Positions 1 to 8,147 of a stretch of DNA of 60,337 bases are shown in pieces. This DNA is from an uncultured Candidatus Poseidoniales archaeon (GTDB taxonomy: Archaea; Thermoplasmatota; Poseidoniia; Poseidoniales; Poseidoniaceae), in contig CAJJCP010000009.1 in NCBI GenBank assembly GCA_905182715.1, forward strand, positions 1 to 60,337. The letters are read 5' to 3'. The stretch's first letter is position 1, and every line of letters begins with the position of its first letter. The translations under genes were made by a program, and so were the position numbers. The notes beneath the pieces were generated by a model. It was not told the origin of the DNA and made no database searches. It saw nothing but the letters and a program-made list of their open reading frames with translations.

Positions 1-278
1 GTATTGGTAATAATGCAGATACTGATGATGATGGTGATGGAGTTTCAGATTCAAGCGACGATTTCCCTGAAGATCCAACAGAATGGGCTGATGTGAATGG
101 AGATGGTCTTGGAGATAACAAGGATCCTCTAAGTTCCTTCGAAAGTGCACAACAAGCACCAGCCCTCTCACTGCTTGGAATTGCTGTAGTTCTTGGAATC
201 ATGTTTATGCTCTATCGTGCTCAACCACCTCTAAGGAATGAAGATAAATCTCTTGCTGAAATTGCTGAGGAAGAGTGA
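1..278 (+). CDS. C-terminal end of a calcium-binding surface protein (5' partial)
   Basis: The frame is open from the first bases and runs to the TGA at 276-278, so the gene starts outside the window. The visible 90 or so residues contain a thrombospondin type 3-like stretch (NADTDDDGDGVSDSSDDFP), whose regularly spaced Asp residues bind calcium in this family. A short linker follows, then one hydrophobic helix (about ALSLLGIAVVLGIMFMLY) and an acidic cytoplasmic tail ending EIAEEE. This is the usual ending of a membrane-anchored, surface-exposed protein in this lineage. The function of the missing N-terminal part cannot be read. A hairpin follows directly. Confidence 0.85.
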   Translation, partial: IGNNADTDDDGDGVSDSSDDFPEDPTEWADVNGDGLGDNKDPLSSFESAQQAPALSLLGIAVVLGIMFMLYRAQPPLRNEDKSLAEIAEEE

Positions 279-280
279 TT

Positions 281-318
281 CCTCGTTAGAGATAAACTTC
301 TACTTGTTGTTAACGAGG
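281..318 (+). terminator. hairpin after the surface protein gene
   Basis: CCTCGTTA at 281-288 pairs with TAACGAGG at 311-318 (8-bp stem, about 22-nt loop), starting 3 nt after the stop codon. Position and shape fit a 3'-end or transcript-stabilising hairpin. There is no T-run, so factor-independent termination is only a guess. Confidence 0.45.
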
Positions 319-385
319 GTGATTTCATAACACCTTTGTAAACAATTCAGTAGATTGAAGCGTTCGCTATGGAACATATACGTTC

Positions 386-484
386 CTAGCGTCGGTATCG
401 ACCCACTGAATCCCCTTTGTATCGGAAAATAAAATGCAAAGGGGTTTCGGATAACCCCTTGCAACTTATCCGAATCAATTAGTT
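386..484. repeat. left arm of a 99-bp inverted repeat
   Basis: Positions 386-484 match the reverse complement of 1845-1943 at 98 of 99 positions; the only mismatch is at 394. The arm contains its own small palindrome (AAGGGGTT / AACCCCTT, about 442-460) and a CCCCTTTGTATCGG motif. It overlaps the stop codon of the GIY-YIG gene. Outside the arms the flanks (before 386 and after 1943) do not match, so the identity ends sharply, as expected for element ends. No clear target-site duplication was seen. Confidence 0.95.
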
Positions 485-937
485 CCAATACACAGCATGT
501 CCTAATTTTCTAAGTTTTTCACCCATTTCCGTTTCCTTATTTTTCGCTTCATTTTCTTGTTCGATTGCACTGCCTGGGAAGGTTGGACCATCAGTTCTAA
601 CAATGGGGTTAATTGATGAAATTCTTGCAAGATTTAAATCGAAACCATGAACATACTTGACCTTCTTTGGAAATTTTCTAGGAGTCGGCGACTCAGAAAA
701 ACAATTACAAGGATATTCGTTATTTTCAGGTCTTTCTGCGGTGTGTTGCAGATATCTGCATTCTGGTCTATGTTTAGTAATCCCAACATAAAATATTTTT
801 TTATCATTTGGAAAGTTGCCCTCGTAAGGAAAGTCTGGTTTTTCTTCGAGTACTGCTCTGTCTAACTCGATAACGTATACATGATAATTATTGCAACTCA
901 TTTTGCCATCGCAATCTCTACAGTAATCACTACCCAT
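479..937 (-). CDS. GIY-YIG nuclease-like protein
   Basis: A 152-residue protein. The segment YHVYVIEL (residues 18-25) and FYVGIT (about 49-54) match the two beta strands that give the GIY-YIG family its name. A basic stretch with Arg and His (KHRPECRYLQH) follows, and a Glu-rich helix near the C-terminus (EQENEAKNKETEMGEKL) could supply the metal-binding Glu. The last residues LGHAVYWN resemble the closing strand. The N-terminus carries CRDCDGKMSC, a possible small metal knuckle; a shorter start at Met13 (901) would remove most of it. It is divergent from the PLD-like gene at 1118 and both lie between the inverted-repeat arms. The stop codon lies inside the left arm. Family membership is inferred from motifs; the target DNA and biological role are unknown. 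Confidence 0.7.
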   Translation of the reverse strand: MGSDYCRDCDGKMSCNNYHVYVIELDRAVLEEKPDFPYEGNFPNDKKIFYVGITKHRPECRYLQHTAERPENNEYPCNCFSESPTPRKFPKKVKYVHGFDLNLARISSINPIVRTDGPTFPGSAIEQENEAKNKETEMGEKLRKLGHAVYWN

Positions 938-992
938 ACGCGGACCAGATTATTTTGTGATAAATGATTATCGGGATAATATCCCTTTGTAC

Positions 993-1064
993 ACCCTCTG
1001 TATCGACAGCCATACAGAGGGTACCCATGCAACACCCGTCAGTTGGAAGGGGTCCCCTCTGTAT
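993..1064. promoter_or_regulatory. divergent promoter region with a hairpin and three CCCTCTGTAT motifs
   Basis: The 180 bp between the two divergent nuclease genes holds an 11-bp perfect stem (ACCCTCTGTAT at 993-1003 with ATACAGAGGGT at 1012-1022, 8-nt loop). A third copy of the motif lies at 1054-1064 (CCCCTCTGTAT), next to the small palindrome AGGGGTCCCCT. A near-match, CCCCTTTGTAT, sits in each terminal arm. A motif shared by the middle and the ends could be a protein-binding site controlling both genes or recognising the ends. A-rich sequence at about 1083-1097 could serve as the TATA box for the gene at 1118. Confidence 0.5.
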
Positions 1065-1117
1065 TTTTCAACTAATAACGGGAAAAATACTTCAATACAA
1101 TACTGCTGGGCTAACTT

Positions 1118-1834
1118 ATGAGCATGCAATTCATCAGGTCTGACGAATTAAACAGAGAACTACTTCGCATTGTCGAAGAAGAGACTGATGAACTATTCCT
1201 CATCAGTCCTTACATTAATCTCTCGACAAGATTTAGCAACGCTTTGGTACAAGTTTCAAAGCGTAATACTAAAGTGACAATAATCTCAAGGTGGGAGAAG
1301 AAATTCAAACCATCTGATAAAGAATTGTTTGATGCTCTTGTCGATAGAGGATTTGATTTGTACCTTGTAGATAGATTACATGCTAAACTATATTTCACAA
1401 AAACGAAAGGAATTTTGTCATCAATAAATTTCCTGAAGGGTTCACAGGAACACAGTGAAGAAGTTGGAATTGTAACGGACGAGCCTGCTATGAAGAGTGA
1501 ATTTGACAGATATGCCAAAGATTTAATTGAGAAGAGCATAGTACATTGGGGGCATGATTCCATAGCGACTGAAGATATTCTCTTAGTCCCCAATCCATCT
1601 AAATCAAAAAAGTATACAGGTGGATATTGTATTCGTACTGGAGAAAAAGTTCCATTTAATTTAAAATCACCATTTACGAAAAAAGCATTTGCTAATTGGA
1701 ATCGACATAAGGAACCTGAATATAAAGAAAAGTTTTGTCATTTTTCTGGTGAAGAATCAAACGGTGAAACAACTTTCAGTCGGCCGATTTTGAAGAAGAA
1801 TTGGACGAAGGCGAAAAAAACACATAACTTTTGA
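1118..1834 (+). CDS. PLD-like nuclease with a degenerate C-terminal zinc-ribbon region
   Basis: A 238-residue protein. The N-terminal half looks like a phospholipase D-superfamily domain: ELFLISPYINLS (about 26-37), then RLHAKLYF, which contains the HxK core, then SSINFLKG and SEEVGIV, which match the N-x(n)-E/G part of the fold. One HxK domain of this size normally works as a dimer. The C-terminal 70 residues (GYCIRTGEKVPFN ... EYKEKFCHFSGEE) resemble the Cys-rich tail seen on some bacterial PLD-family proteins, but most expected Cys are missing: CIRT and CHFS replace CxxC pairs, so little zinc binding is likely. It faces the GIY-YIG gene across a shared promoter region and ends 11 bp before the right repeat arm. 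The comparison with the family tail is from memory. Confidence 0.75.
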   Translation: MSMQFIRSDELNRELLRIVEEETDELFLISPYINLSTRFSNALVQVSKRNTKVTIISRWEKKFKPSDKELFDALVDRGFDLYLVDRLHAKLYFTKTKGILSSINFLKGSQEHSEEVGIVTDEPAMKSEFDRYAKDLIEKSIVHWGHDSIATEDILLVPNPSKSKKYTGGYCIRTGEKVPFNLKSPFTKKAFANWNRHKEPEYKEKFCHFSGEESNGETTFSRPILKKNWTKAKKTHNF

Positions 1835-1844
1835 ACAAACCATC

Positions 1845-1943
1845 AACTAATTGATTCGGATAAGTTGCAAGGGGTTATCCGAAACCCCTTTGCATTTTAT
1901 TTTCCGATACAAAGGGGATTCAGTGGGTCGATACAGACGCTAG
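1845..1943. repeat. right arm of a 99-bp inverted repeat
   Basis: Reverse complement of 386-484 with one mismatch. It begins 11 bp after the PLD gene stop and ends exactly where a different dispersed repeat begins (1947-2029). The inner palindrome GCAAGGGGTT / AACCCCTTTGC could also act as a transcript end for the PLD gene. Confidence 0.95.
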
Positions 1944-1946
1944 TGA

Positions 1947-2029
1947 CTGTACTGTGAGTGACTGAACACCCATTTCACCCACAATGTCTTGAGAGGTTTG
2001 ACAGACCTTTGCGACTTCGTGGAAATGAT
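1947..2029 (+). repeat. dispersed hairpin repeat, copy 1
   Basis: Contains GACTGAACACCCATT (1960 on), CAATGTCTTGA (1982-1992), a hairpin (AGGT ... ACCT) and GCGACTTCGTGGAAATGAT. The same blocks in the same order occur in reverse at 7092-7186, and the first two at 5373-5430. It lies in the 5' region of the beta-helix surface protein gene. Confidence 0.75.
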
Positions 2030-2098
2030 TTGTCGGTTGTTTATGTCAGCGTATGAGTACATCTTCGCTTGTTGACTCCTTTTTTCATTTACACGATT

Positions 2099-5000
2099 AT
2101 GAATGGTTCAACAACCAAAAGAGCAAGGCTGGTGGTAAAATTTATGCGAAAAAATGTTATGGCGTTGTTTCTTGTTTCAATTCTTTGTATTTCAACAATA
2201 TCTGTTGCTCTTTCTGATAAAACCACTCTTATTGAAGAGAATTCAGAAATGTATTCAACAACACCCTCATCAGTCAATTGTTCGAATGTAACCCGTAGCA
2301 TAGGTGACCATATTCATGTCGATAACCAGTTGGGTAATAACTCGAATCCTGGTACCCTCGATTGCCCTGTGGAAACGGTTGTGAAAGCAATAGAGATCGC
2401 CATAGATAATGATACAATAACGATTCACGAGGGCGTTTATCATGAATCTGTTATCATTTCCGGTTTCCAAAATTTGACCATTCATTCAGCAATTGGCGAA
2501 CGTGTTGTATTCGATGGTACGCGTAGTATTGCGGACGATCTTCATGCGAACTGGACTCTTTCCACCGGGGGAATACACGAAGTGGATTTAGGAATCAATG
2601 CCTGGCAGGTTTTCATGGATTATGAGGAACAAGTTCCGGCCCGTTGGCCAAATGCAAACTTCAGTGATTCTACTGTTCTCAATCAATCACATCATTGGGC
2701 ACACGGAACGATTGGTGATGGCGGCACATACTCGAATGGTGAACTACAGGATGGAGGAGGTACTGCTGGAGCAAGTAATGGATTGGTTGCTAGTGGAATA
2801 GATCCAACTGGAGCAATAGCCATTTTGAATGTCGCCTCCTTCCAAACGTGGAGCCGCACTGTCAATTCATATGACAGTGCGAATGCGACTTTCACATATG
2901 ATGAGGTGCCGAAGTGGAAGACCAAGCATCACAACTATTTCCTTGAAGGAATGAGAGAACTCATCGATGTCAGTGGTGAATGGTGGTTTAGCAATAATGA
3001 TGACAAATTGCATATGATGTTCCCGAATGGCACAAATCCAGACACTCTTGATATTCGAGTAAAAACACAAGCATTTGCATTTAACGTAACTGCAAGCGAG
3101 AATATCACGCTACAAGGTCTCGAATTCTTTGCTACAACATTTAGGACTCAAGACTGCAATGCGTGTGCAGTATTGGATTCGGATCTGATGTACCCGAGTA
3201 CTTCAAAACGAGGTCTTGGGATTTCAGGAGAAGATGAGGATGACAGATGGATATCTCGAATGGACAAATGTTCGAACTGTTTGATTGACAACAGTTCTTT
3301 CGCTCATACTGATGGCACAGCAATAGAATTTCATGGAGCGGGGTTACAATCTCATAACAATACGATTAACAACACGAATTTCGAATCCATTGATTGGTCG
3401 TCATCAGATTTGCCAGGTTTGATGGTTACCGTTTTTGATTCCGGTCGAGATAACACCTTTTCCAATAACACTGTGCATACAACAGGTGCGTCAGCTACGA
3501 TTAGTATCGGTGACTCTCCACAAGTCTTCTACAATGACATTTCAGATACTGGTTACACGCAGAGTGATGGCGCAGTTGTTCAAATGATGATGAATGAACA
3601 ATTTGGTGCTGAAGTTGCTTACAATTGGATTCATGATTCGGAAAAGTACGGTATTCGAATGGATGGTCCTGCTGGAGGGACAAATACCGGTAACAATGCA
3701 ACAGTCCATCACAATGTACTTTGGGATATGAAAACTGGATTTATGGTGAAGGGAGACTATCATTCCACTCATAACAACACTGTCTTTGGAAATGGCAATG
3801 ATATTGGAAAGAACCAGATTATTGTTCTTTATGAGAATGGGGCCGGTAACGAAAATTCAACGACATCAAATAATGCAGCGGATAAGATTGCGGCCCATCG
3901 TAGTAATTCATATTCAAGTAACCCAGTGCCTGGCATATTCATCAGCAATTACAACGGTTATCAAGAATCATCGGGTACAGTAGAGTCAATGTTGGTTGAC
4001 CCTGCAAATAATGATTTTAGACCAAACTCCAATTCCATCTTAGATAATTTAAGTGCAGGTGCTTACGATGCAGCTGACCCAAACCCATGGACTGCTGGGG
4101 CAATTCGGACCTGGCAGCCAATGATTCCTCCAATTCTAGGTTGTACAAATGCCACATCGAATAATTATGATAGTAACGCTGGAGTAAACGATCACAGTTG
4201 TGATTTCGATCTTGATGATGATGGTATTCCTGACATTGATGAGATTGAAGGGTGTACCGATTCTACTGCCAACAATTATGATGTGAATGCAACCGATGAT
4301 GACGGAAGTTGTGATTATGACTTTGATGATGACGGTATTCCTGACATTGATGAGATTGAAGGGTGTACCGATTCTACTGCCAACAATTATGATGTGAATG
4401 CAACCGATGATGACGGAAGTTGTGATTTCGACCTTGATGATGACGGTATTCCTGACATTGATGAGATTGAAGGGTGTACCGATTCGACTGCCAACAATTA
4501 TGATGTGAATGCAACCGATGATGACGGAAGTTGTGATTTCGACCTTGATGATGATGGAGTTCCTGACATTGATGAGATTGAAGGGTGTACCGATTCTACT
4601 GCCAACAATTATGATGTGAATGCAACCGATGATGACGGAAGTTGTGATTTCGACCTTGATGATGATGGAGTTCCTGACATTGATGAGATTGAAGGGTGTA
4701 CCGATTCGACTGCCAACAATTATCGACGTCAATGCAACCGATGATGACGGAAGTTGTGATTACGACCTTGATGATGATGGCGTTCCTGACATTGATGAGA
4801 TTGAAGGATGTACCGATTCGACTGCCAACAATTTCGACGTCAATGCAACCGATGATGACGGAAGTTGTGATTACGATCTTGACGATGATGGTGTTCTTGA
4901 TGTTGATGAAGTGCTTGGATGTATCAATTCCACAGCCAATAACTTTGATGTCAATGCAACCGATGATGACGGAAGTTGTGATTATGACCTTGACCATGAT

Positions 5001-5321
5001 GGCGTTCTTGATGTTGATGAAGTGCTTGGATGTACCAATTCCACAGCCAATAACTTTGATGTCAATGCAACCGATGATGACGGAAGTTGTGACTCGAGTG
5101 AGCCAATCTTCGATACGGACAATGACGGATTCAGCGATGATTTAGACAATTGCCCAACACTTTCGGGAGTGGATAATGGTTGTCCAGTCACTCAAGGGAA
5201 AGACCTTGAGGATGCGGACGATATTTCCAAATTATATCTCACGTCGTCGGTGATTATAATTCTCGTAATATTCTTGCTTTTTCTTCTTCTTCGAAAGAGA
5301 AAAGAAGAACAGTCGGAATAA
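2099..5321 (+). CDS. beta-helix surface protein with nine Cys/Asp-rich repeats, frameshifted near 4724
   Basis: The first part, to about 4130, has a signal peptide (MRKNVMALFLVSILCISTIS) and a parallel beta-helix-like region (repeated N-N-T/N-x-F turns, as in DUF1565/pectate-lyase-like folds). It carries many N-x-T/S sites. Next come nine repeats of 37 residues of the type GCTDSTANNYDVNATDDDGS, a TSP3-like segment (DTDNDGFSDDLDNCP), a single membrane helix (SSVIIILVIFLLFLLL) and a basic tail. The frame beginning upstream stops at 4744; the remainder continues in the next frame to the TAA at 5319-5321. A one-base insertion in AATTATCGACGTC at about 4724, compared with AATTTCGACGTC in the next unit, explains this. 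The start could be 2099 or 2144; 2144 gives the tightest signal peptide. Likely a cell-surface binding or adhesion protein. Confidence 0.8.
4139..5093 (+). repeat. 111-bp tandem repeats (nine units)
   Basis: Unit starts such as GGGTGTACCGAT recur at 4250, 4361, 4472, 4583 and 4694, exactly 111 bp apart. The first and last two or three units have drifted, while the middle ones are almost identical. Each encodes 37 residues with two Cys and two Asp-rich loops. The middle units use TATGATGTGAAT; the later ones use TTCGACGTCAAT or TTTGATGTCAAT. The frameshift sits at the border between these two versions. Confidence 0.95.
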
Positions 5322-5372
5322 ACAGCTCTAATCTGGTTGAATGGATTAGCCATAGTTATGGATTGCTAGATA

Positions 5373-5430
5373 GGGTAGGCAGTGTACTGGGGACTGAACA
5401 CCCATTGTACTCTTCCATAATGTCTTGAGG
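5373..5430 (+). repeat. dispersed hairpin repeat, copy 2
   Basis: GGGTAGGCAGTGTAC at 5373-5387, GACTGAACACCCATTGTACTC at 5392 on, and TAATGTCTTGA. This block is nearly the reverse complement of 7131-7186. Just downstream is a different hairpin (CGACGCGT-GAG-ACGCCTGTCG, about 5434-5455). It lies between the converging ends of the surface protein and the oxidoreductase, so a 3'-end role is possible. Confidence 0.75.
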
Positions 5431-5498
5431 GTACCGACGCGTGAGACGCCTGTCGCAAGGGTAATACAGAGGGGTATCACAATTCGTTCAGACCATGC

Positions 5499-6602
5499 TT
5501 AGGATGAAATTTGCACAACGCATTTCCCTTTTGCTCGACCCGAAAAAGAGCGATTGAACGCCCCCTGCCAGCCATCTTCGGAATCTTCTGAATGGAAGTC
5601 CCAAACACCGTCGAGCACAGGCTTAATCACACCGCTTTCGAGATGATTTGCAAGCGTTGAGAGATCCTCATGACTTGGTGAAAGGAAAAGGTAGGTCCAG
5701 TTAGCGTTCATAGATTGAGCAGCTTTGTACTCCTTCCGCTTTACCTTCCGCTTCAAGAAGAGTTTGAGGATCCAAGCAGTTCCTCCGATTCTCCTAATTT
5801 CATCTAAAGTAGGCGTTCCTGCAATAGAAACAATTCGTCCCCCTTCTTTGATGATTTTGACCATCTCAAGACCTTCTGCAGTTGTATCAAAACAAACATC
5901 GAATTTCGTACTGTCATCGTTACCATATGCTGTGACAAAGCTTTCTGATTTGTAATCGAGGACTTCATCTGCACCAAGGCTCTTACACAAATCCATCTTT
6001 TCGCCTTTTGATGCAGTTGTAACTACAAGTCCTGCTTTGAATACATGCTTTGCCAATTGAATGGCCATTGTGCCAACTCCACCAGCCCCTCCGGAGATGA
6101 AGACAGAGTCTCCTTCTTTCAGCCCAGATTCTTTCAGTACCTGGAATGCAGTCATTCCTGCGAGTGGGATAGATGCGGCTTCCTCGAAACTGATATTGTC
6201 TGGCTTAGTGACAACATCAGATGTACGTGCAACACAAAATTCAGCCATTGTACCTCTAAACCACGGTGTCTTCTTGTCATCATCTACATCACTCCATACG
6301 CGAGCAAATACAGGCTGTCCTACCGAAAACACTCCTTTGCTATCGGCTTTTTCCACAACTCCTGCAACATCATAAGAAATGACATGAGGGAATTCAGCAA
6401 CAGGGAAAACAAGTTTCAAATCTCCTGACAGCAGTATTTTATCCACTGGATTAACCGAAGATGCGTGAACCTTGATGACTACATTTTTAGATGCATCAAA
6501 TCCATGTGGATAAGGCACTTCCATTTTCTTCAATTGGGCGGGTTTGCCGTATTTCGAGAAACCGATGCTGTTCATTGTTTTGCCGTTTGGATGTGCCATC
6601 AT
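5499..6602 (-). CDS. NAD(P)H quinone-oxidoreductase-like enzyme (zinc-free MDR family)
   Basis: About 367 residues, typical for medium-chain dehydrogenase/reductases. An N-terminal GroES-like part (VVIKVHASSVNPVDKIL) is followed by a Rossmann fold with the nucleotide-binding motif SGGAGGVGTMAIQLAKH (about 195-211) and LGADEVLDY. The zinc-ligand pattern of alcohol dehydrogenases is absent, so quinone or enone reduction with NADPH is the likely chemistry; the actual substrate is unknown. The start at 6602 (two consecutive Met codons) is preferred to 6635 because homologous chains begin close to NSIGFSKYG. It is transcribed away from an HxlR-type regulator, a common pairing in redox- or electrophile-responsive systems. 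Confidence 0.85.
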   Translation of the reverse strand: MMAHPNGKTMNSIGFSKYGKPAQLKKMEVPYPHGFDASKNVVIKVHASSVNPVDKILLSGDLKLVFPVAEFPHVISYDVAGVVEKADSKGVFSVGQPVFARVWSDVDDDKKTPWFRGTMAEFCVARTSDVVTKPDNISFEEAASIPLAGMTAFQVLKESGLKEGDSVFISGGAGGVGTMAIQLAKHVFKAGLVVTTASKGEKMDLCKSLGADEVLDYKSESFVTAYGNDDSTKFDVCFDTTAEGLEMVKIIKEGGRIVSIAGTPTLDEIRRIGGTAWILKLFLKRKVKRKEYKAAQSMNANWTYLFLSPSHEDLSTLANHLESGVIKPVLDGVWDFHSEDSEDGWQGAFNRSFSGRAKGKCVVQISS

Positions 6603-6655
6603 GACCCCGGCTAAGTACTCCCGTACATAAACCAAAAAGTGGCAGAAGTGTTCTT

Positions 6656-6673
6656 TTGTAACAATGTTGTAAC
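6656..6673. promoter_or_regulatory. candidate HxlR operator: TTGTAAC direct repeat
   Basis: TTGTAAC at 6656-6662 and 6667-6673 are spaced 11 bp start to start, one DNA turn. They lie in the short gap between the divergent oxidoreductase and regulator genes. A TATA-like CTTAATACC at about 6680-6688 is 22-30 bp upstream of the regulator start at 6710. Operator function is inferred from the position and spacing. Confidence 0.4.
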
Positions 6674-6709
6674 CTGTGCCTTAATACCAAAATGATACTT
6701 AGGATATCT

Positions 6710-7063
6710 ATGTCTCAAGTACAATCACTGCGCATTGAATCAATGTGCGAATCGGCCCGAAGCCATGTTGATGATTTACTGGTTTTACTCTCAAAATCTA
6801 AGATGCTCAGTATTCTCTACATTATGAATTGTGATCCTACGCCAATGCGTTTTTCTGAAATAAAAAAGAGGGTTGACTCTTCCTCAACAACTGTTGCAAG
6901 ACGATTGGGCGAACTTGAAGCCAATGGGTTGGTCACTCGTACTGCTTATGCAACCGTTCCAGCTACAGTCGAATATACGCTTACCAAGGATGCAATTTCA
7001 CTTCACCCCAGTCTTAAATCGATGTTTGAATGGGTGCTAAATCGAGCAGACAAATCACTTTGA
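6710..7063 (+). CDS. HxlR-family winged-helix transcription regulator
   Basis: About 117 residues. The winged helix is clear: SKMLSILYIMNCDPTPMRFSEIKKRV, then SSSTTVARRLGELEANGLV (recognition helix and wing) and VEYTLTKDAISLHPSLKSM, as in HxlR/MarR-like regulators that bind DNA as dimers. An earlier ATG at 6692 is possible, but 6710 places the TATA-like element at a normal archaeal distance. It probably controls the divergent MDR oxidoreductase in response to oxidants or electrophiles. No Cys is obvious in the core, so the sensing mechanism is unknown. Confidence 0.85.
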   Translation: MSQVQSLRIESMCESARSHVDDLLVLLSKSKMLSILYIMNCDPTPMRFSEIKKRVDSSSTTVARRLGELEANGLVTRTAYATVPATVEYTLTKDAISLHPSLKSMFEWVLNRADKSL

Positions 7064-7091
7064 ATCTTAACAGGATACAGAAAACCGATAT

Positions 7092-7186
7092 ATCATTTCC
7101 ACGAAATCGCAAGGGTTGTTCCAAACCCTTCAAGACATTATGGAGGAGTACAATGGGTGTTCAGTCGGCCCGTACACTGCCTACCC
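7092..7186 (-). repeat. dispersed hairpin repeat, copy 3 (reverse orientation)
   Basis: Read on the minus strand: GGGTAGGCAGTGTAC, GACTGAACACCCATTGTACTC, TAATGTCTTGA, the hairpin AGGGTT-TGGAAC-AACCCT, then TTGCGATTTCGTGGAAATGAT. Its first half pairs with copy 2 and its last third with copy 1. With copy 2 it frames the oxidoreductase/regulator pair as an imperfect inverted repeat. Confidence 0.75.
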
Positions 7187-7247
7187 ACTGCTTGGATGGG
7201 TATGCAGAGTTATTAACAATATGATGATACTAGTGTAGGTGATAGCA

Positions 7248-8147
7248 ATGGATTCTACTCGTCAAGATTTGCGATTAACAACAATCGTTGTAGCTATCGT
7301 GTTTCTCATTGTCTTTTTGATGGTTCGTGCTGTTGGAAATAATTCAGTCGTTTTGAATGGATACTCTGCTGTACTCTATTGTGCAGTGATTTCTATTGGT
7401 ATGCAATGGATAGCATGGATACCTGCATCTTTCGGGAAAACTGAACGCTTCTATGATTTAACGGGTGGCTTAACCTATCTCACAGTCGTAGGATTCAGCC
7501 TTTGGGCGGGTTCACAGTCCGAACCTCCAAGTCCAAGAGAATTAATCATTAGTTTACTTGTTGTCATCTGGTCTTTACGCCTGTCCAGTTTTCTTTATTT
7601 TCGTATTCATCGAACTGGGAAAGATGGACGCTTCGATCAACTCAAAACATCGCCGATCCGATTTCTCGTACCATGGACTCTTCAAGGCCTGTGGGTATTC
7701 CTAACAATGATCGTAGTTATTGTCATCAATAGTCAAGCAGATTCAGGAACTCCATTAGGGATATGGGACGGTATAGGATTGTCAATATGGATACTCGGAT
7801 TTGGTATTGAAGCAATAGCCGATAAACAAAAAACAGTATTCAATACAGAACCAAATAATCAGGGCAAATGGATTGACAGTGGTTTGTGGTCTTACTCACG
7901 GCATCCGAACTACTTAGGGGAAATTCTTCTATGGACTGGAATCGCCTTCTTTGGAATATCTTGCTTTACAGGTCTCGAAAGAGTTGCTTGGGTATCGCCC
8001 ATATTCATTTATCTCCTCTTAACGAAAGTGAGTGGAATTCCCATACTCGATAAACGAGCTTTAGAAAAGTGGGGAGATGATCTCGAATATCAAAAATACA
8101 GAGAGAATACTCCTGCTCTTCTTCCTCGATTTAATAAAAAATCATAA
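7248..8147 (+). CDS. DUF1295 / steroid 5-alpha-reductase-like membrane protein
   Basis: About 299 residues with six or seven membrane helices. The diagnostic C-terminal block is present: GKWIDSGLWSYSRHPNYLGE, then LLLTKVSGIPILDKRALEKW and YQKYRENTPALLPRF. In this superfamily that block binds NADPH, and members reduce double bonds of lipids or steroids or act as isoprenylcysteine-type methyltransferases; the substrate here is unknown. The start is placed at the ATG at 7248; a GTG at 7239 would add only three residues. It stands alone between a dispersed repeat and a converging gene. Confidence 0.85.
   Translation: MDSTRQDLRLTTIVVAIVFLIVFLMVRAVGNNSVVLNGYSAVLYCAVISIGMQWIAWIPASFGKTERFYDLTGGLTYLTVVGFSLWAGSQSEPPSPRELIISLLVVIWSLRLSSFLYFRIHRTGKDGRFDQLKTSPIRFLVPWTLQGLWVFLTMIVVIVINSQADSGTPLGIWDGIGLSIWILGFGIEAIADKQKTVFNTEPNNQGKWIDSGLWSYSRHPNYLGEILLWTGIAFFGISCFTGLERVAWVSPIFIYLLLTKVSGIPILDKRALEKWGDDLEYQKYRENTPALLPRFNKKS

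Follow-up and report, generated by a model that had tools for sequence, protein, structure and literature searches.

What do two nuclease-like genes share that would set them between inverted arms that are almost perfect copies of one another? The window, by which we mean the whole 60,337-nucleotide stretch analysed, is contig C9 of a 1.78-Mb draft genome that is 73% complete, and the arms lie at 386-484 and 1845-1943. One arm agrees with the reverse complement of the other at 98 of 99 positions (the mismatch is at arm position 9), and the likeness breaks off sharply at either side. Exact inverted matches in window positions 1-6000 reach 60 bp or more, compared with a maximum of 18 bp in 50 dinucleotide-preserving shuffles. 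The near-perfect 99-bp inverted arms with abrupt ends that were reported in the initial annotation are therefore real. So is their closeness to the 3′ ends of the genes, with the stop codon of the GIY-YIG-like gene inside the left arm and the end of the PLD-like gene 10 bp before the right arm. As had been noted, the window has no tRNA, and no recombinase gene was seen among its ORFs of at least 110 aa, read by eye.

The window holds two one-gene cassettes placed back to back, not one element, and the arms are the LE, one of two kinds of cassette end, of each. Because cassettes A and B are joined tail to tail, their two LEs look like 99-bp inverted repeats. The parts are as follows, with scores from covariance model R1 for the LEs and from a profile for the other kind of end, RE.

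387-1023, plus strand: cassette A, from TA to TA, 637 bp.
387-493, plus strand: LE of cassette A (the left arm), with its TA at 387-388 and its cargo side to the right; 109.9 bits at 388-493 with model R1, which includes this copy.
479-937, minus strand: GIY-YIG-like nuclease gene, the cargo of cassette A, 152 aa, with its 3′ end within the LE.
970-1023, plus strand: RE of cassette A, a diverged copy ending in GGG-TA at 1022-1023; 22.8 bits with its own copy included in the profile.
1022-1942, minus strand: cassette B, from TA to TA, 921 bp.
1022-1073, minus strand: RE of cassette B, sharing the TA at 1022-1023 in the tail-to-tail junction GGGTACCC; 35.0 bits with its own copy included.
1118-1834, plus strand: PLD-like nuclease gene, the cargo of cassette B, 238 aa, with a Pfam PLDc_2 match (6.9e-10) and weak DpdK/DrmC similarity.
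1836-1942, minus strand: LE of cassette B (the right arm), with its TA at 1941-1942; 118.8 bits with model R1, which includes this copy.

When the window's own copies are left out of the profiles, the LE of cassette A still scores 92.5 bits and that of cassette B 100.1 bits. Under the same condition the RE of cassette B is found at 1070-1022 on the minus strand (33.5 bits, E 1.3e-9), and the RE of cassette A gives a weak match at 974-1023 on the plus strand (19.0 bits, E 5.9e-5). Since the RE and LE matches hold without these copies, we place cassette A at 387-1023 and cassette B at 1022-1942, tail to tail, meeting at GGG-TA-CCC. What had been taken for a shared promoter region is this junction, in which two RE ends meet at TA 1022-1023. 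The idea of a functional two-nuclease defence unit is unsupported because each gene sits in a unit of its own. The suggestion of a mobile cassette survives in part: this is mobile-cassette DNA, and the arms occur elsewhere with other cargo, but it is not a single element with terminal inverted repeats.

The names given to the two genes are reasonable. That of the PLD-like gene agrees with its PLDc_2 match. The GIY-YIG-like protein itself has no Pfam or NCBIfam match, and its single-sequence structure prediction was unusable (pLDDT 44.5); a 38%-identical relative from another family of the phylum (L327) matches Pfam GIY-YIG at 6.5e-9. Each gene was found only in its own genome among 59 (1/59), made up of that genome and 58 relatives. 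Its own genome aside, weak relatives of the GIY-YIG-like gene (37-47% identity over ~50-75 residues) are confined, across 292 genomes, to 15 members of a single distant family; none of its relatives turned up in phage and plasmid records, nor any of the PLD gene in viral contigs. Searches with the arm and both proteins, as the initial annotation had proposed, recovered all or part of the arm in 29 of the 58 relatives and neither gene. Conservation of the two-gene arrangement, or retention of both genes without arms, was likewise not seen in these 58.

Units of this kind are bounded by TA on both sides, with an LE of ~106 bp and an RE of ~45 bp. The 1048-bp unit encoding an RDD membrane protein, for instance, starts with TAGCG (LE) and ends with GGTA (RE). 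The RE has a GGGG/CCCC repeat and a second repeat before GGGTA, and the LE holds two hairpin-forming repeats. For the LE hairpin H1, the 38 double-changed cells and the covariation score lie above all 500 shuffles, with slid partners far lower, although the counted structure also contains the second hairpin. Pairs with double change (290 of 500 shuffles) and further pair types (158 of 500), two of the five measures, show no excess, and with such mixed outcomes the covariation of the LE is suggestive only. An alternative LE helix, S2, had no clear excess over shuffles, and H1 was kept. Rfam gave four matches to E 1 in window positions 1-6000, all far below the gathering score and none in the arms, and the likeness of LE and RE spacers within the same cassette was not significant (159 of 2000 shuffles as high).

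Model R1 has 106 positions and was made from 23 sequences, including both window arms. From 41 extracted LE-to-RE candidates, six with a spurious or doubtful RE were dropped (L039, L059, L068, L125, L143 and L160), which left 35 for counts; the RE profile was built from 34 distinct ends, the window's two REs among them. Both the LE and the RE profile searches were repeated without the window's copies, and the matches held. The 35 kept units measure 0.38-2.1 kb and mostly contain one or two ORFs, as judged by eye, the longest being two units.

We surveyed the junctions in 175 non-duplicate loci, which had been chosen for an LE, a recombinase or flanks and in which 125 LE and 54 RE outer junctions were readable. 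TA is present at 116 of the 125 LE junctions and at 50 of the 54 RE junctions. The outer neighbour of the LE is an RE in 20 cases and another LE in 18, while the remaining 87 have no end that we could recognise. For the RE, the outer neighbour is another RE in 17 cases and an LE in 13, with none recognisable in 24. A recognised partner is thus present at 38 of 125 LEs and 30 of 54 REs, compared with 6 of 600 TAs picked at random from these loci. Junctions were called from each end, so one joint may count twice. Profiles made by leaving out one locus at a time gave identical junction counts. The units join head to tail, head to head and tail to tail around TA.

The LE is dispersed among related archaea of Candidatus Poseidoniales. 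Matches to all or part of the left arm at E 0.01 occur in 30 of the 59 genomes, at many sites and often at contig ends, as is expected for a multi-copy repeat, and identity reaches 94% over 98 bp even in the other family. Model R1 has 17 matches to E 1 in the window's own genome, eight of them below 0.001 including both arms. Among 196 genomes of the phylum, 33 have matches at 1e-6, of which 32 belong to the same order (own genome included) and one to another family of the class; the last has a clear LE of 70 bits at 6729-6836 of locus L153, outside the order. Viral contigs gave no match to the LE pattern. An exact-pattern scan of named genomes returned 29 stretches, 16 of them titled Poseidoniales, Poseidoniaceae or Poseidonia and 13 titled "Euryarchaeota archaeon". 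These include the 2.06-Mb chromosome record CM001443.1 and the isolates AG-333-I22 and AH-273, which we take to be single-cell genomes; if so, a binning artefact is unlikely.

Several shared units are more alike than the glyA genes of the genomes that carry them. The 1048-bp RDD unit is 97.6% identical between two genomes of two species (97.6-98.2% compared with 77.3% for glyA, the one gene used as background throughout), and its flanks are unrelated: beyond an internal repeat, nothing else matches across two 12-kb stretches at the thresholds used. A membrane-protein cassette is 97.2% identical over 638 bp across genera, where glyA is 69.8% identical, and a 428-bp cassette of the window's own genome shares 98.0% over 255 bp with another genus, against 69.5% for glyA. 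Past the LE of both cross-genus cassettes lies unrelated DNA, and the opposite side reaches a contig end or comes close to one. Another shared cassette has a weaker excess (91.8% compared with 82.2% for glyA), and other pairs lie near background (for example 73.4% compared with 71.2%), so sharing is not always recent. Three attempts to find an empty site, at the cysteine synthase side of the G071 pair, at the gene at 7239-8147 and by joining the flanks of two own-genome cassettes, yielded no clean one; the DNA of relatives past the conserved gene differed in all three.

A candidate enzyme comes from the cargo itself. The first loci contained four intact serine recombinases and one truncated one beside an LE, and a sixth with an internal stop. 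Such genes lie inside LE-RE units, in a minority of them, and neither cassette A nor B has one. When 99 genomes were searched at the protein level, 15 of them contained a total of 23 matches, and for 19 of these matches plus the query's own locus (n=20; four broken pieces in two genomes were left out) we compared linkage to the LE. All eight recombinases at least 62% identical to the query, the query included, have an LE upstream on the same strand, whereas none of the 12 homologs at or below 56% identity has recognised ends. For five of the eight LE-linked recombinases, including the query, it was the LE that had first led to the locus; the other three (G255, G253 and G043:C17) were reached without it. 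The window's own genome has only a 34%-identical recombinase with no LE or RE nearby; a closer one may lie in the missing quarter of the genome.

The recombinase is 262 aa long and has a Resolvase domain (3.1e-31) and part of a Recombinase domain (2e-4) by Pfam. Residues Y16, R18, S20, D93, R94, R97, E153 and R154, to which we presumptively assign catalytic roles, are among those invariant in 10 recombinase sequences. Its NCBIfam similarities are to CcrB, XisF, Mpi and IS607 enzymes, with scores that fall far short of each family's cutoff, and relatives with solved structures are a DNA invertase, gamma-delta resolvase and TP901-1 integrase. Viral contigs gave one relative, a serine recombinase with 33% identity (L325, 5001-5675).

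Probably the window carries an array of non-autonomous cassettes whose LE and RE combine half-sites with accessory sites for the 262-aa serine recombinases found in a minority of cassettes. Each unit would consist of an LE, usually one gene, then an RE. The recombinase is expected to cut at the central TA with a 2-bp overlap, after which the cassette could excise as a circle with RE joined to LE and insert at another TA junction, and it would act in trans on cassettes without an enzyme of their own. TA is its own reverse complement, so the junction has no polarity and head-to-tail, head-to-head and tail-to-tail joins can all form. The ends repeat a 10-bp box, CCC[AT][CT]NN[AT]A[CT], which keeps fixed positions and takes both orientations. 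There are 71 copies in LE sequence totalling 3780 bp and 48 in RE sequence totalling 2030 bp, compared with 12 in 26.5 kb of cargo and 13 in 52 kb of the window's other DNA (~19-24 vs 0.25 per kb); this enrichment is descriptive because these very ends were where the box was picked out by eye. To judge by the sequence, the arrangement suggests a site of crossover plus accessory sites, used by a dimeric recombinase on duplex DNA, and a repeated box accounts for the inverted repeats more simply than RNA or single-stranded DNA sites do. For Marine Group II as a whole, in both sampled families, we lean towards a serine-recombinase counterpart of the integron, in which single genes, often for nucleases or membrane proteins, lie between an LE and an RE, and a small Ccr/LSR-like recombinase working in trans may exchange them at TA regardless of orientation.

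Small units with TA at both ends and no enzyme of their own could also be non-autonomous elements of the Tc1/mariner/IS630 type, MITE-like and carrying cargo, with a TA target duplication and a DDE transposase elsewhere in the genome. Yet LE and RE differ in sequence and length and have no matching terminal repeats, Pfam shows no DDE transposase domain in 27 cassette proteins, and the enzyme linked to the ends is a serine recombinase, which makes this origin unlikely. An integron-type system, with folded single-stranded ends that a tyrosine integrase recombines as it does attC sites, would explain the cassette logic of arrayed, usually single-gene units, and it could draw on hairpin H1, whose 38 double-changed cells are equalled in 0 of 500 shuffles (two of five measures being without excess). 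Integron arrays run one way and their junction is a GTT core. Here orientation is free, with head-to-head and tail-to-tail junctions common, the junction is TA, and the linked enzyme is of the serine type; inverted boxes are equally expected for a dimer binding duplex DNA, and we regard single-stranded recombination by a tyrosine integrase as quite unlikely.

The ends are structured and dispersed, as are repeats of other function such as RNA genes, terminators or repetitive intergenic palindromes, and homologous recombination between such repeats can exchange the DNA between them. On that account, however, one would not look for junctions exact at a dinucleotide, which are found even beside diverged LEs and REs, or for near-identical units with unrelated flanks. 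The arms have no Rfam match (window positions 1-6000), and a clade of recombinases is linked to the LE; cargo movement by homologous recombination between repeats of other function is accordingly improbable. Least credible, and very improbable in our estimate, is the earlier proposal of a single autonomous element or defence unit made up of the two nuclease genes and their arms. Both products are indeed nuclease-like, but an RE-RE junction separates the genes, the arm is found with many other cargos, and the pair occurs in 0 of 58 relatives.

The cassette array proposed here shares features with several known systems. SCC elements use a serine recombinase (CcrA, CcrB or CcrC) to move cassettes that can sit in tandem, and CcrB is the best NCBIfam similarity of the recombinase (8.2e-23). 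The score is 80.8 of the 900 bits of the CcrB cutoff, however, the protein has 262 aa against a 542-position CcrB model, and here the units are small (~0.4-2 kb) and lie at many sites. IS607-family and other serine transposases and the res sites of Tn3-type elements likewise involve serine recombinases, with a 2-bp crossover and accessory binding sites. The IS607 match is weak (2e-5, 24.2 of 110 bits cutoff), and unlike those elements most units here are enzyme-less and carry unrelated genes. As in serine-recombinase elements, a catalytic domain is present, in a minority of units, and a central TA is common to the junctions, where cleavage would take place. Integron cassettes with IntI and attC, including the archaeal ones (PMC9668308), are also small arrayed units, mostly enzyme-less, with structured sites and diverse horizontal cargo. 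The present units differ in having a serine and not a tyrosine recombinase linked to the ends, two distinct ends per cassette, a TA junction, free orientation and dispersal over contigs. In place of one orientation and one attC we count LE-RE 20, RE-LE 13, LE-LE 18 and RE-RE 17. The system has the cassette logic of integrons and the enzyme class of SCC and serine transposons, and is a member of neither.

No description of such cassettes was found in the open-access literature searched. The archaeal integrons of PMC9668308 have IntI tyrosine recombinases, and the words "Poseidon" and "Thermoplasmat" are absent from the main text of that paper. Charybdis elements are also mobile DNA of Poseidoniales; they are circular, ~4.6 kb, with about 10 genes, and some are integrated beside tRNA genes (PMC12324425). 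The same source calls Marine Group II extremely common and uncultured. Because these archaea are abundant in the surface ocean and uncultured, their gene gain and loss are largely open. A recognisable pair of ends makes their mobile gene pool extractable by profile search. If the reading given here is true, it shows that the cassette strategy of integrons can come about through an unrelated enzyme, and why orientation is no longer fixed once the crossover is a palindrome.

The Pfam scan of cargo covered 27 cassette proteins, among them both proteins of cassettes A and B, a single recombinase and three that belong to candidates dropped earlier. It identified a LEM-3-like GIY-YIG protein, a GIY-YIG protein just above the cutoff, PLD and HNH proteins and a NYN-type RNase with an HTH neighbour, together with a Mrr-like nuclease just below the cutoff, RDD and DUF3592 proteins, weak zinc ribbons and many proteins without a family. 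Judged from these families, the cargo (GIY-YIG, PLD, HNH, NYN RNase, Mrr-like and small membrane proteins) suggests candidates for anti-virus functions, and because nuclease cargo is recurrent, a defence role for single cassettes is possible. In a cassette on contig C32 of the window's own genome (L093, 3080-4507), the gene for the NYN/Zc3h12a-type RNase and the small HTH gene form a toxin-antitoxin-like pair.

Rightward of cassette B the array probably continues to 7183. The window has TAs at 387-388, 1022-1023, 1941-1942, 5376-5377, 5432-5433 and 7182-7183, and the further parts are these.

1941-2043, plus strand: LE3, head to head with the LE of cassette B, opening putative cassette C.
2069-5321: surface-protein gene, the cargo of putative cassette C, with LE3 at its start and an RE that is not clear-cut.
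5376-5433, plus strand: fragment of a truncated LE, with a TA on either side; portions of two LEs on contig C25 of the same genome (L199) match it at 96.7% and 94.6% identity.
5432-7183, minus strand: putative cassette D, with an RE-like start on the left at TA 5432-5433, read by eye, and no RE profile match.
5499-6635, minus strand: alcohol dehydrogenase-like gene of putative cassette D, named by eye.
6692-7063, plus strand: HxlR-like gene of putative cassette D, named by eye.
7078-7182, minus strand: LE4, 32 bits with the covariance model and 31.0 bits with the window's copies left out.

LE3 is weak (model R1 at 1942-2043, 16.7 bits, E 0.029; profile 14.0 bits, E 0.0011) and resembles the outer flanks in two other loci (L038 and L048). 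Positions 5432-6402 recur on contig C25 of the same genome with 96.6% identity over 972 bp, in a match that begins at this TA and runs to the contig end. To the right of LE4, homology begins at 7182-7185 in 6 of 29 related loci, with other DNA leftward, and further in for the rest.

The surface-protein gene contains eight repeats of ~111 bp, and one spacing is 112 bp (4502 to 4614). Its reading frame changes there, from an ORF at 2069-4744 to one at 4620-5321, so this is a frameshift, a sequencing error or a contingency repeat. A hairpin, CTGCTTAG..TAAGCAG (7183-7239), precedes the gene at 7239. Several relatives retain it, and the DNA leftward of it differs in nearly all of those shown; the region is a possible hotspot or resident attachment site. 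One related locus (L249, 2028-3606) has no LE, although its alcohol dehydrogenase and HxlR genes adjoin the gene that neighbours them in the window; it may represent the state before an LE arrived, with chromosomal genes becoming cassettes, or the state after an LE was lost.
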